Origin: Aquificota bacterium
GTDB lineage: Bacteria > Thermosulfidibacterota > Thermosulfidibacteria > Thermosulfidibacterales > B14-G1
Direction of reading: 5' to 3'
Assembly: GCA_015486015.1 (NCBI GenBank)
Contig: WFSL01000010.1
Span: forward strand, 1 to 64,000
DNA: 64,000 nucleotides
Shown here piece after piece: positions 30,568-36,487 of the stretch; position 1 is the first letter of the stretch; each line of letters starts with the position of its first letter. The notes under the pieces are model-generated. The model was not told the origin of the DNA. It saw only the letters and a list, made by a program, of their open reading frames with translations, and searched no databases. The position numbers and the translations under genes were made by a program.

Positions 30568-30835
30568 ACTGTTTGACCACTTTCTTGAGGCACTTAGGGG
30601 GTTTTCCAAGGGCTTCAAGGAGAGGACAGTTGATACCATTGAGAAGGAGCTCTTCGAAATGGAGGGCTCCTTCGCATTGCTTGTGTTCTCGTCCCTTGTG
30701 GGATTACCTTCGCCTCCTCCTTTAATAGGGCTCTCCCTCCTCCCATATATGGAGAGGGAGTTTTCTATTATGCTGGCCAAGTCCAGTGACCTGAAGGACG
30801 CCTGGTCTGTCTGGGCTGATCTGGCGGATATTTGA
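30554..30835 (+). CDS. Small uncharacterised protein between cstA and arsA-like gene
   Basis: A 93-residue protein of unknown function. It has an amphipathic N-terminus ('LFDHFLEALRGFSKGFKERTVDTIEKELFEMEG'), then a hydrophobic stretch with a Pro-rich turn ('FALLVFSSLVGLPSPPPLIG', about residues 40-60) and an acidic end. It may be membrane-associated. GGAGG lies just before the ATG, it overlaps cstA by 14 bases, and its stop overlaps the arsA-like ATG (TGATG). This tight nesting argues for a genuine gene working with the ATPase. Confidence 0.7.
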   Translation: MRSSKLFDHFLEALRGFSKGFKERTVDTIEKELFEMEGSFALLVFSSLVGLPSPPPLIGLSLLPYMEREFSIMLAKSSDLKDAWSVWADLADI

Positions 30836-31746
30836 TGGAGCGGGTCTTCTTCTTGCTGGGCAAAGGAGGCGTAGGTAAGACCACATCGGCAGCTGGCCTT
30901 GCTTTGACCCTGGCGGACAAAGGGAAAACGGTTTTCTGGGCCTCCATTGATCCTGCGCATAACCTATGGGATGCCCTGGGAATGGAACCTGCCTCTGGGG
31001 TGAGGCACATTGCCGAGCACCTGTGGGCTCAAGAGGTAGACTTAGACAGGTATCTGCAGCGGATTCTGAAAGAGACTACCCAGAGGATGAAGTCCTTCTA
31101 CCGCCACCTCCAGATCGTCAACTTGGAGGGGATCTTAGATGTTATCCGCTATTCCCCTGGTATGGAGGAGTCTGCTGTCCTGTATGCCCTGAGGGATATC
31201 CTTGAGAGGCACAGTGATAAGGACTACATTGTGGTGGACACCCCACCCACGGGGCTCACGCTAAAGATCCTCTCGCTCCCATTCTCCATCCTCCTGTGGA
31301 TCGAGCAACTCCGTAAGTGGAGAAGAAGGATACTGGATAGAAGGGGGATTGTTGCCTCTGTGATGGGGAGGGATGCCCTCGGCAAGGATGTGGCTGTGAA
31401 GGTGCAGGAAGACAGTATTTACAGAGAACTTGACCGTCAAGAGTCCCAGGCCAGGTATATGGCAGATCTCTTACGGAACGGGGAGATCGTGAGAAACATT
31501 TTGGTTCTCAATCAGGACCGTTTATCCCTCATGGAGAGCAAGAGGATAAAGGCTTTTTTAGATAGATTGGGATTGCCACTTAATATGATCCTCTTAAACA
31601 GGGTGGGTTTGGTGGACGAGGTCGAGGCCGACATTCTTGAGGCATTTCCGTCAATTCCCCTCAAGAGGCTTCCCAACATAGGTCCTTCTCCAGACTTGAA
31701 GGGGCTTCGCTCACTGGGCAGCCTCTGGGCAGAGGAGGTGGCATGA
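30835..31746 (+). CDS. ArsA/Get3-type P-loop ATPase without cysteines
   Basis: A 303-residue ATPase of the ArsA/GET3 class (SIMIBI). The deviant Walker A is 'LGKGGVGKTTSAAGLAL'. Switch I is 'ASIDPAHNLWDALG' (DPAH conserved) and switch II 'YIVVDTPPTGLTLKILSLP'. There is one ATPase half, not the doubled form of the arsenical pump. The protein has no cysteine at all, so it can form neither the As(III) site of ArsA nor the zinc-linked dimer of Get3. Flanked by two membrane-associated small proteins, it may handle a hydrophobic or membrane client. ATG 30835 overlaps the preceding stop. Confidence 0.87.
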   Translation: MERVFFLLGKGGVGKTTSAAGLALTLADKGKTVFWASIDPAHNLWDALGMEPASGVRHIAEHLWAQEVDLDRYLQRILKETTQRMKSFYRHLQIVNLEGILDVIRYSPGMEESAVLYALRDILERHSDKDYIVVDTPPTGLTLKILSLPFSILLWIEQLRKWRRRILDRRGIVASVMGRDALGKDVAVKVQEDSIYRELDRQESQARYMADLLRNGEIVRNILVLNQDRLSLMESKRIKAFLDRLGLPLNMILLNRVGLVDEVEADILEAFPSIPLKRLPNIGPSPDLKGLRSLGSLWAEEVA

Positions 31747-33293: not shown

Positions 33294-34673
33294 TTACAGG
33301 GACCTGGAGAATCTTAGCTTCATCTGGAGGAAGAACCAGTCGGCCTGCGTGTCGTCAGCCAAACCCTTCACGAAGTCCCCGGGCCAGAAATGGCCGTAAC
33401 CAAACTGCACTTCCCTGTTTCTTGATGGCAAAAGGAGCTTTCCCACTACATCGAACTCCCAACCCAGATCCCTCCCCAAACCGCCACTCTTATCCCTGTA
33501 GACCTTAGGGTTGAAATACCAGGCGTCCTTATCTTGGGTCAGCCAGAACTTGTGGACCTCGGCCTTGAAGCTCAGCCCCTTCGCAGGCATGAGTTCCAGA
33601 TTGAACTGGGCATCTTCGAGGTTCTTCCAGTCCATAAGGTTCATCCTACCGTACATCTTGTCTCTGGCCCCGAAGATGCCGTCAAAGGTGTTCCTCTCGC
33701 CATCTTTTGGGTTCTTATCTCCCGAGGCATAAGAGAATTCAGTGCTGATCCTGGGTTCAAAGGGGACCTGCTTGAGTCTGTAACCCACAAGTATGTGATA
33801 TCCATATGCATTTATTTCATCATTGGCCCAATGGCCATCCTGCCAGGCGAAGATGAAATCCAGGTCAAGATTGGGGAGGATCTCAGAGTAAGCCCTGAGG
33901 CCATAGTAATTGGAGGCAAAGTCACCCTTTTTGCCCTCCTCCCCTTTGAAGTTGTGGTGATGGTCAAATTTTCTCACCAAGAATGGTTCCAGATAAAGTT
34001 TAATGCCTCTCCCCATCAGATGGAAGTGGCTGTAAATGGCTAAGCATTGATAGTAGTGCCGGTGACGCCAAGTGAATCGGGCAGGATCGTGGATGATGTT
34101 CTGACCATAGAGGAGGTCCACGAAGTCCCCCTTAAACTTATAGGAAAGCCTTACCGCATCCCATGCGTATCTGCCTGTGTTCCCCCACTGGCCAGGCCCA
34201 AATACCCTGTGGTCCCCGAAGGCTACGATCTGCCTCCCCATCTTTAAGCTGAGTCCTTTGATAGGGATGTCTCTTACTTGGATGTAGGTATTGTAGGGCT
34301 CTATGTAGTCTTTATACGGGTTGTGTTTGAGGCCCAAGCGCGGTTTGTAGAAGTCCTTATTGGGGATGGCTACATCATAGGCCCTGGAGTCTTGAATGCC
34401 AGCTGAAAGATAGACATGGTCGTTGAGCTTGTAGCCAAGCATAAATCTCGCCCTCTGCAGGAGAAAGCCATCATTGGATTTCCCCTTTAGGGGATGTTTG
34501 CCGTAATACTTGATGTTGAAATGATGCTGATATTCCCATCTGTATCTTATTTCCCCTTGAATTCTGACAGGTCCAGCCAAGGCCATTGAGGATAGCAGAA
34601 GCATCAAGACAATCTGGGCTAGGGGAAGTAGAGGACACCGCCTACCCCCATCTGGCGCTCTGTTTGGAGCCAC
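33294..34673 (-). CDS. Outer-membrane beta-barrel porin (alginate-export domain type)
   Basis: A 459-residue outer-membrane protein. A signal peptide ends near residue 33 ('LLLSSMALA'), starting from GTG 34673. The mature protein alternates aromatic and charged residues as in beta barrels, with '[14 protein letters not shown]' at the beginning and '[39 protein letters not shown]' (about 140-178), the pattern of the alginate-export (PF13372) family. The last strand is '[14 protein letters not shown]'. It is the last gene of the arsR-fmdE-tauE operon (5 bases after tauE). Probably a channel for a small anion; the substrate is unknown. Confidence 0.83.
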
Positions 34674-34678
34674 TCACC

Positions 34679-35437
34679 TTACCCCCAATGAATGAGGGCA
34701 TCCCTTAAGAGTATCATGCCCACAAGGAGGAGCAGGGTTGCAAAGAGGTATCTTACACCCTTGGGCTTCATTTTCCCTGCCATCAAGCGGGAGCCCACTT
34801 GTGATCCCCCAAGTACCGCTGCGACGCATCCAAGGGTGATTAAGGGATAAAAGTGGGCCTGAGGGATGTGGCTTATAAACCCAGAGGTAGCAGCAATTGT
34901 TACAATGAAAGAGGAGGTGGCCGCAGCGTGTTTGGGCTCCAATCCAGAGAGCAGTAAAATGGGTACCACCATAGCCCCACCACCCCTGCCGGCAAACCCT
35001 ACCACAAGCCCAAGGATGGAACCTGCTGCAATACCCAGGATCAGCTCCGCCTTCCGAGATTCCACCTTCCTCTTGGGCTTCCACCCAGTGAAGACCAGAA
35101 GAGACGAGGTAATGGTGAATAGGGCAAAGACCAGGATCACTAAGGCAACGGACACCTTGAAATTCATAAAGGCGCCGAGAGGGGCGGAGGCCACCATAGC
35201 AATGGCAAAGGGGAGTGCGAGGCGTACCCTTATGAGGTCATGTTTATGATAAGTGTATGAGGCAGAGGAGGAGGTGAAGATGTTTAGCAGTAGCCCAAGG
35301 GGGATAGCCCCGTGTTTAAAGTCCATGCCCAGCCAGTATAGAATAGGAATATAAAGCTGGCTGCCCCCCATGCCCAGCATGGAGAAGAGGAAAGAGATCA
35401 CAAAGAAGAGAGGTGGGGCCCAAAAAAGACTGTGCAA
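34679..35437 (-). CDS. TauE/SafE family sulfite/anion exporter
   Basis: A 252-residue membrane protein of the TauE/SafE (DUF81) family, involved in export or import of sulfite, sulfonates or organic acids. The two homologous halves show '[19 protein letters not shown]' near residue 19 and '[36 protein letters not shown]' near 145, the diagnostic G-x-GGG region. Seven or eight hydrophobic helices are seen. It lies 11 bases after fmdE and 5 before the porin, all under the arsR promoter. Confidence 0.9.
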
Positions 35438-35448
35438 GGCCCTTCCCT

Positions 35449-36069
35449 CTATTCGTGGCAGAGGATCTCATCATACCCGGAACACGGTATGCAGACCCTC
35501 TTCCCTTCCTTTATTCTAAGGGCTGTTTCAAAGGTGAGTTCGCCACAGATCTCACAGGGAACAGCTACAAAGCAGCCGATTTTCTTCTCAGTCTCGCATT
35601 CGAATACCTCACTGACGTTCAGGAACTCTTCCTCTGGCATGCTTAGGATCCTGGTGAGAAGAGGCTTGAGCACTTCAAAGGGCACGTCCTGAGGTGGGAT
35701 ACCCCTCTTTCGCATTTCTACAAATGGAGAGCTTAGGGCCTTGGCAAGGAATCCTGGCTTTAAAGAGACCCTCACCGCCCTCCTGGTCATAGTGTCAATA
35801 AGGGTGAAGGCCATCTTGTTCCAGTACTTCTTGATAATGTTCCCCTTGCCATATGTGCATCCCGTAGCTACCATTACACCATCCAGAAAGCATCCCGCTG
35901 CGTGGTTTCTTCCTGTCTCTGAAATACAAAAAAGCTCCTTATCCTTGGATCTCTCTACTTCTAAGGCCTCCATGGCTTTAAGCCCTGCTCTCAGACCCGT
36001 TGGCATGGCAGGGCATTTGTGGCCATGAAACTGAAATCCCATCTCCAGTAGCTCTTCCGGTACCACCAT
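35449..36069 (-). CDS. FmdE family protein with C-terminal zinc-finger-like region
   Basis: A 206-residue FmdE-type protein. The family motif '[18 protein letters not shown]' (HGH-x-C-P) opens the FmdE domain, followed by '[24 protein letters not shown]'. The C-terminal 40 residues hold CEIC and CIPC pairs ('[13 protein letters not shown]...[11 protein letters not shown]'), a probable zinc ribbon. FmdE was named for formylmethanofuran dehydrogenase operons; in sulfate reducers similar proteins occur with molybdenum/tungsten or redox genes, and their activity is not established. ATG 36069 has GGGGAGGTG five bases upstream and starts one base after arsR. Confidence 0.86.
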
Positions 36070-36070
36070 C

Positions 36071-36442
36071 CTACACCTCCCCATTTTTTCCGTGAATTAC
36101 TCGATAGGAGCTGTCTTCAAGGATCCTCTTCAATCTCGCATCAAGCTCTCTGGTCTCCTCTGCTTCTCCGACCAATGCACATATGGACTCGATCACCTTC
36201 TCCATTCCCTTTGGCAAGTCACCCCTTATTCTGTAAGTCACCCATCTGTCTACTCTCTCTCCTATAAGGATCCCAGCATTTTTCATGTAAACCAGATGCC
36301 TCGATGCCTTCGTCTGGGTGATCCCAAGGGTCCCCATCACCTCACAAACGCACATGGGGTGTTTCCAGAGGAGGTATAGGACCAAGAGCCTGGTCTCATC
36401 GGAGAGCCCTTTCACGAGATCTGCTATTTCCCTTATCCTCAT
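36071..36442 (-). CDS. ArsR/SmtB family transcriptional regulator
   Basis: A 123-residue winged-helix repressor. '[21 protein letters not shown]' and the recognition helix region '[34 protein letters not shown]' are typical. It has CVC in '[12 protein letters not shown]', the position of the metalloid-sensing CxC in ArsR alpha-3 sites, so As(III), another soft metal or a reactive sulfur species may be sensed. It is the first gene of an operon with fmdE, tauE/safE and a porin. A palindrome (36465-36476) lies inside its own promoter, indicating autoregulation. The leader is very short (about 11 bases). Confidence 0.9.
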
Positions 36443-36459
36443 CCCTCTGCCCCGCCTTT

Positions 36460-36487
36460 TTTATATATGCGCATATGCGGATGTCAA
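36460..36487 (-). promoter_or_regulatory. Promoter of the arsR-fmdE-tauE-porin operon
   Basis: On the minus strand a perfect TTGACA (36487-36482) is followed after 16 bases by TATAAA (36465-36460). The arsR ATG lies at 36442, so the 5' leader is only about 11 bases. Confidence 0.75.
36465..36476. promoter_or_regulatory. Palindromic operator (probable ArsR site)
   Basis: The 12-base perfect palindrome ATATGCGCATAT fills most of the -35/-10 spacer of the arsR promoter and touches the last base of the -10 box. Its size and AT-flanked form resemble ArsR/SmtB operators. It also lies about 80 bases before thiL on the other strand. Confidence 0.6.

Follow-up and report, generated by a model that had tools for sequence, protein, structure and literature searches.

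An operon of four genes in the window (the whole stretch of DNA that was analysed, 64,000 nucleotides) resembles an arsenic-resistance operon whose effectors are a new pair, an FmdE-family protein and a TauE/SafE carrier. We consider the operon to be probably a module for the detoxification of arsenic or another metalloid, with arsenic as the most likely metalloid. The gene layout, the cysteines of its ArsR-type regulator, the constancy of the pair across genomes and the association of the pair with arsenic islands are described below.

Operon organization and promoter

The operon occupies positions 36487 to 33294 of the minus strand, with the following features in the order of reading:

36460..36487, minus strand: promoter TTGACA-16-TATAAA (sequence; palindrome search)
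36071..36442, minus strand: ArsR-type repressor, 123 residues, CVC at residues 30–32 (PF01022, 43.9 bits)
35449..36069, minus strand: FmdE-family protein, 206 residues (PF02663, 107.7 bits; PDB 2gvi, E=3e-37; conserved sites)
34679..35437, minus strand: TauE/SafE (TSUP) carrier, 252 residues, of an FmdE-linked clade (PF01925, 137 bits; tree; motifs)
33294..34673, minus strand: outer-membrane channel of the PF13372 (Alginate_exp) type, 459 residues (PF13372, 181.6 bits)

The intergenic gaps measure 1, 11 and 5 bases, in keeping with the anatomy of ArsR, FmdE, TauE and porin at distances of 1–11 bases that was given in the preliminary description. The ATG of fmdE lies one base past the stop codon of arsR; a start at the alternative in-frame ATG, 36084, would make the two genes overlap. 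The −35 element (TTGACA, 36487–36482) and the −10 element (TATAAA, 36465–36460) are separated by a spacer of 16 bases, and this promoter was missed by an automated promoter scan because its −10 element ends in A. Between the two elements, a palindrome search found a perfect 12-bp palindrome, ATATGCGCATAT (36476–36465), which is likely to be the ArsR operator; a repressor on it would block its own promoter, as expected from the autoregulation that had been claimed. With one promoter and no terminator-like site inside the operon on the minus strand in the automated scan, the earlier view of a single ArsR-controlled unit is supported.

An exonuclease III-like gene (33253–32378) starts 40 bases downstream of the porin gene, and the transcription unit may extend into it. 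The gene divergent from the operon is thiL-like. Outside the operon, about 2.5 kb downstream and on the opposite strand, a single-domain ArsA/GET3-type ATPase (30832–31746) comes after a CstA-like transporter gene.

The ArsR regulator

The regulator scores 64.5 bits with the general metalloregulator model NF033788, above the cut-off of 55, but falls short with the BigR model, at 29.8 bits against a cut-off of 155; PHROGs and PADLOC searches gave weak or generic matches only. Its CVC (residues 30–32) aligns with the CVC of CadC and Lmo1102, so that the CxC type assigned earlier holds and the thiolate site of helix α3 is present. CadC-type cadmium/lead sensors are defined by an N-terminal cysteine pair that completes the α3N site; no cysteine precedes Cys30 in the window ArsR, which does not fit this type. 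The third cysteine of E. coli-type ArsR is also absent, a point against the arsenic reading.

These cysteines bear on sulfur detoxification as an alternative role of the operon, in which ArsR would sense persulfide or sulfide and the sulfite or thiosulfate would leave through TauE. The model would be the bigR operons, in which a repressor of the ArsR family is paired with a transporter related to TauE (PMC5823870); the presence of the pair in arsenic islands would then reflect sulfur chemistry that accompanies arsenic. TauE belongs to the sulfite-exporter family, 16 of the 40 loci in the replication sample described below have thioredoxin/CcdA-like genes no more than 5 kb away, and one locus (G028) includes DsrE and a sulfide-dehydrogenase-like flavoprotein. 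However, the position of BigR Cys42, to which HlyU Cys38 is equivalent (PMC5823870), is a tyrosine in the alignment of the window ArsR, which therefore lacks the two-cysteine pair of BigR/SqrR, and Cys88 in the α5 region is not common to the ArsR of G007. The operon also has no persulfide dioxygenase or rhodanese gene, and FmdE-linked TauEs form a separate clade. We regard sulfur detoxification as unlikely.

The FmdE-family protein

Structures of FmdE-family proteins have been available since 2010, and to our knowledge no function has been assigned to the family. The window protein consists of a thioredoxin-like domain with a metal site (His15, His17, Cys19 and Cys60) and a C-terminal Cys4 zinc finger (residues 172, 175, 193 and 196). 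All eight ligands, of the His2Cys2 core site and of the zinc finger, are present and conserved across the family, which agrees with the zinc-finger FmdE protein of the preliminary description. In a tree of 45 FmdEs, the window protein falls into a clade of 31 members (support 100/99), of which 26 have an adjacent TauE. In two loci (L031 and L084, from G041 and G321), fmdE-tauE lies downstream of a gene that we take to be TrmO/UPF0066-like; a fusion of PF02663 with UPF0066 has been mentioned (PMC2954224).

The ligands of both sites are known from FmdE-family crystal structures, which place the metal site in a cleft at the protein surface; one of the crystal forms shows an unidentified ligand in contact with the conserved cysteine (PMC2954224). 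The same structures bind zinc or nickel, and most genes of the family are said to adjoin metal-ion transporters (PMC2954224). The family name, which derives from formylmethanofuran dehydrogenase, would suggest a unit for molybdate/tungstate or another oxyanion. A ModE-like regulator is found beside another TauE on a Kosakonia plasmid, with insertion-sequence genes between this regulator and fmdE-tauE. Against such a unit, just 13 of 208 family members are located with fmd genes (PMC2954224), no fmd/fwd genes lie beside the loci that were read, and no fmd/fwd catalytic genes occur around the operon in the window; we judge it very improbable. In an archaeon on arsenopyrite, transcription of an 'FmdE' gene was lower under all mineral and sulfur conditions and is thus uninformative on arsenic.

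The TauE carrier and its pairing with FmdE

The TauE protein is full length, covering positions 4–235 of the 237 in the PF01925 profile, and carries the motifs GMGGS and GRGGG. The arginine in the second glycine motif, seen here only in one subgroup of FmdE-linked TauEs, would put a positive charge into the signature motif. Searching the PDB for TauE relatives gave no match. In a tree of 46 TauEs, 24 FmdE-linked proteins form one clade (support 100/99), apart from 20 unlinked proteins that come mostly from genomes that also supplied linked ones. In an independent sample, the phylum of G060, TauE is adjacent to FmdE in 36 of 40 loci. FmdE and TauE are thus a fixed pair. A search of E. coli genomes with plasmid fmdE-tauE DNA gave no match.

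Relatives in the order and recurrence of the gene set

Five other genomes of the order encode this FmdE, and all five keep TauE after it (the G002 locus was read across a contig break within fmdE); in three of the five, a small cysteine-containing open reading frame without Pfam match lies between the two genes. Within the order, only the window and G007 have ArsR immediately before FmdE; in the remaining relatives, an RND efflux set, or its on-contig remnant, is found upstream of FmdE. In G002, arsC and acr3 are located just upstream of the RND set. One contig of G003 carries arsC-acr3-tetR and ends soon after, and a contig of G005 with arsP, arsC and acr3 stops next to acr3; both would suit a layout like that of G002.

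The porin, whose N-terminus is signal-like, adjoins TauE in G001, G003, G005 and L217. The adjacency of the two genes in relatives, on which the preliminary description had placed weight, is borne out by three genomes of the order, in which the porin comes after TauE and the longest reading frames overlap by 14 bases. The porin is missing in two relatives of the order and present in several unrelated loci, and is an optional part of the module. Elsewhere, the window genome encodes another porin of this family, with 40% identity (G000:C24:46853-48115, L176).

The exact set of the window, ArsR, FmdE, TauE (PF01925) and porin (PF13372), recurs in the unrelated genome G736 (L217), where a single open frame of 312 residues (L217:8005-8943, G736:C3) encodes both ArsR, with its CVC, and FmdE; an internal ribosome-binding site and ATG in this frame could yield FmdE alone. 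The layout is arsR-fmdE-tauE in L203 and arsP-trx-arsR-fmdE-tauE in L205, with a porin further down. These recurrences show that the combination is no accident of a single genome, and the dependence of the proposal on a conserved gene order is answered by the five relatives and by L217. A neighbourhood search for ArsR-FmdE-TauE, as had been proposed, shows that the pair recurs with a CVC-bearing ArsR directly upstream of FmdE in the window, G007 (L028), G145 (L085), L203 and L217; the adjacent ArsR of G104/G371 has no CxC.

Association with arsenic islands

A first survey, of 386 genomes and additionally of plasmids, found the FmdE-TauE pair in about 18 lineages, with ars genes no more than 8 kb from the pair in nine of them. 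The layouts include arsR-arsP-fmdE-tauE-trx-arsR-arsC-arsD-arsA-acr3 (G327) and arsR-arsM-arsP-tauE-fmdE-CDF-trx-ccdA-arsC-acr3 (G113); a further example of the pair among ars genes is arsR-acr3-arsC-fmdE-tauE. In G328 the pair sits between acr3-arsC-ccdA and arsP-arsR, and in G028 an ars cluster lies about 7 kb away. On plasmids, a Tn3-flanked island of Citrobacter amalonaticus Y19 reads arsR-arsC-arsD-arsA-arsC-acr3-trxB followed by tauE, CDF, fmdE and an arsP-like permease, and pSCD of Sulfuricella carries arsM, arsC, RND, tauE and fmdE.

Enrichment of ars genes was predicted beforehand for a replication sample, the phylum of G060 (395 genomes, 40 loci); the phylum of G265 was passed over, with only 7 genomes. 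Acr3, ArsC, ArsA, ArsD or ArsM was found within 8 kb in 19 of the 40 FmdE loci, and in 23 if ArsP is included. Both counts are given because matches to PF03773 (ArsP) are not fully specific to arsenic; among curated models, SaoE and a Cu/Zn exporter come nearest, but neither match reaches its cut-off. Restricting the count to loci whose flanks extend far in both directions gives 12 of 18 with ars genes (ArsP counted). The same genes were found at none of 20 control loci, at which a TauE of the surveyed genomes stands without FmdE (Fisher p = 6e-5 for the strict set and 4e-6 with ArsP, both approximate, as some genomes are close relatives). Neighbours were called with small home-made profiles, partly checked against curated models, which confirm Acr3, ArsD, ArsA and ArsM in such loci; the ArsC that was tested scored 146.9 with its curated model, below the cut-off of 174.3. 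About half of the FmdE-TauE loci show no ars gene nearby, partly since contigs, many of them short, come to an end. The link of FmdE-TauE with arsenic islands is well supported by these data.

Other recurrent neighbours of the pair are metal exporters of the CDF family and sulfur-related genes (thioredoxins, CcdA, rhodanese, SQR-like and DsrE), and another metal or a sulfur species is a possible substrate. In a role in metal-cation homeostasis, FmdE would be a zinc or nickel protein that serves metal efflux or anion-coupled metal export, which would suit the metals and the transporter neighbours reported for the family, as well as the CDF exporters near the pair in L093, Citrobacter Y19, Halorubrum and 4 of the 40 replication loci. 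However, ars genes are far commoner neighbours than CDF (19 versus 4 of 40), the window ArsR lacks the N-terminal cysteines of CadC, and TauE carriers transport anions; this role appears more doubtful still than sulfur detoxification.

Some loci have further distinctive neighbours. CDF exporters stand beside fmdE-tauE in loci of the L085, L135, L136 and L147 type (Halorubrum, Sulfuricella, Citrobacter Y19, L093), a second association of the pair. In L032 (G028:C23:28000-45000) and L077, a Porin_O_P gene and tauE are enclosed by two copies of fmdE, with the DsrE and sulfide-dehydrogenase-like flavoprotein genes nearby and the ars cluster about 7 kb away. The pair is also found among Tn3/IS elements on large plasmids of Kosakonia (L133, pKrDSM16656L), Citrobacter, Klebsiella and Enterobacter, some from clinical isolates. 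The stretch of pKrDSM16656L that was read has no ars genes beside fmdE-tauE but holds the second TauE with its ModE-like regulator.

Proposed mechanism

We infer the inducer, the substrate and the direction of transport. In the arsenic detoxification that we favor, ArsR would be bound at the palindrome between −35 and −10, as motif and promoter suggest, and would be released when As(III), Sb(III) or another thiophilic metalloid or metal binds Cys30 and Cys32. FmdE and its dedicated TauE partner, whose association is observed, would then be co-produced. With the metal site in its cleft, FmdE may act as an arsenical chaperone or as a converter to a thiolated or otherwise conjugated anion, the TauE-type carrier would move the arsenic-derived anion out across the inner membrane, and the porin would offer it an exit from the periplasm. 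Relatives may accomplish this outer step with a TolC-HlyD-RND set whose genes lie immediately upstream.

Of the two-membrane route proposed in the preliminary description, the exporter and porin remain a possible path for a small anion. Sulfite and thiosulfate are no longer the leading substrates, because the regulator has the α3 CVC and lacks the BigR/SqrR pair, and because FmdE-TauE is strongly enriched in arsenic islands, an association that a single window could not reveal. Thioarsenate is the favored, if tentative, candidate: TauE relatives carry sulfur anions, monothioarsenate resembles thiosulfate, with which it has been compared structurally (PMC6620896), and thioredoxin/CcdA-like genes accompany many of the loci. 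It is conceivable, although short of probable, that FmdE-TauE forms a route of arsenic export as yet undescribed, which probably carries thioarsenates or some other arsenic conjugate and works beside or instead of Acr3 in anoxic sulfidic habitats, with a porin or RND outer step. A 2018 review held that mechanisms of thioarsenate resistance should exist, as yet unverified (PMC6205960).

Comparison with known systems and significance

Canonical ars operons (arsR-arsC-acr3/arsB, arsD, arsA, arsP, arsM) share with the window operon the α3 CxC of ArsR and a self-controlled promoter, and in other genomes FmdE-TauE occurs inside them. In contrast, the window operon has no arsenite permease or arsenate reductase and so does not qualify as a canonical ars operon; its effectors are FmdE and TauE. 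In bigR/sqr-type sulfide operons, an ArsR-family repressor likewise controls a TauE-family carrier; the window operon differs in regulator cysteines, TauE clade and the presence of FmdE, and given those cysteines and the missing persulfide dioxygenase it does not qualify as a bigR-type operon. The two-domain FmdEs of PF02663 (2gvi from Thermoplasma and a Syntrophus protein) have the same domain order and metal ligands, whereas the window FmdE has a fixed TauE partner and is not beside formylmethanofuran dehydrogenase genes; with fmd/fwd genes not adjacent, the operon does not qualify as one for that enzyme. With TauE/SafE (TSUP) anion carriers, the window TauE shares the fold family and the paired glycine motifs, but it belongs to its own FmdE-linked clade, with a GRGGG subgroup. 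A literature text search, with subscription journals mostly outside its scope, found no paper tying FmdE to TauE or to arsenic resistance, nor a described system with this exact gene set, consistent with the earlier claim that none was known.

In the window genome (96.75% complete), the best Acr3 match reaches 23.7 bits (cut-off 282.8), and no ars-type ArsC was found, the single low-molecular-weight phosphatase being on another contig. The operon may therefore replace a canonical ars operon there, and may be the main arsenic-type operon of this genome. Although catalogues of arsenic-resistance islands go back decades, the FmdE-TauE pair that recurs in many of them has seemingly been left without an assigned role. 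Since fmdE-tauE is also found on plasmids of culturable bacteria, its role can be tested in laboratory strains. Arsenic export by FmdE-TauE, if true, would be the first function for the two-domain FmdE family.
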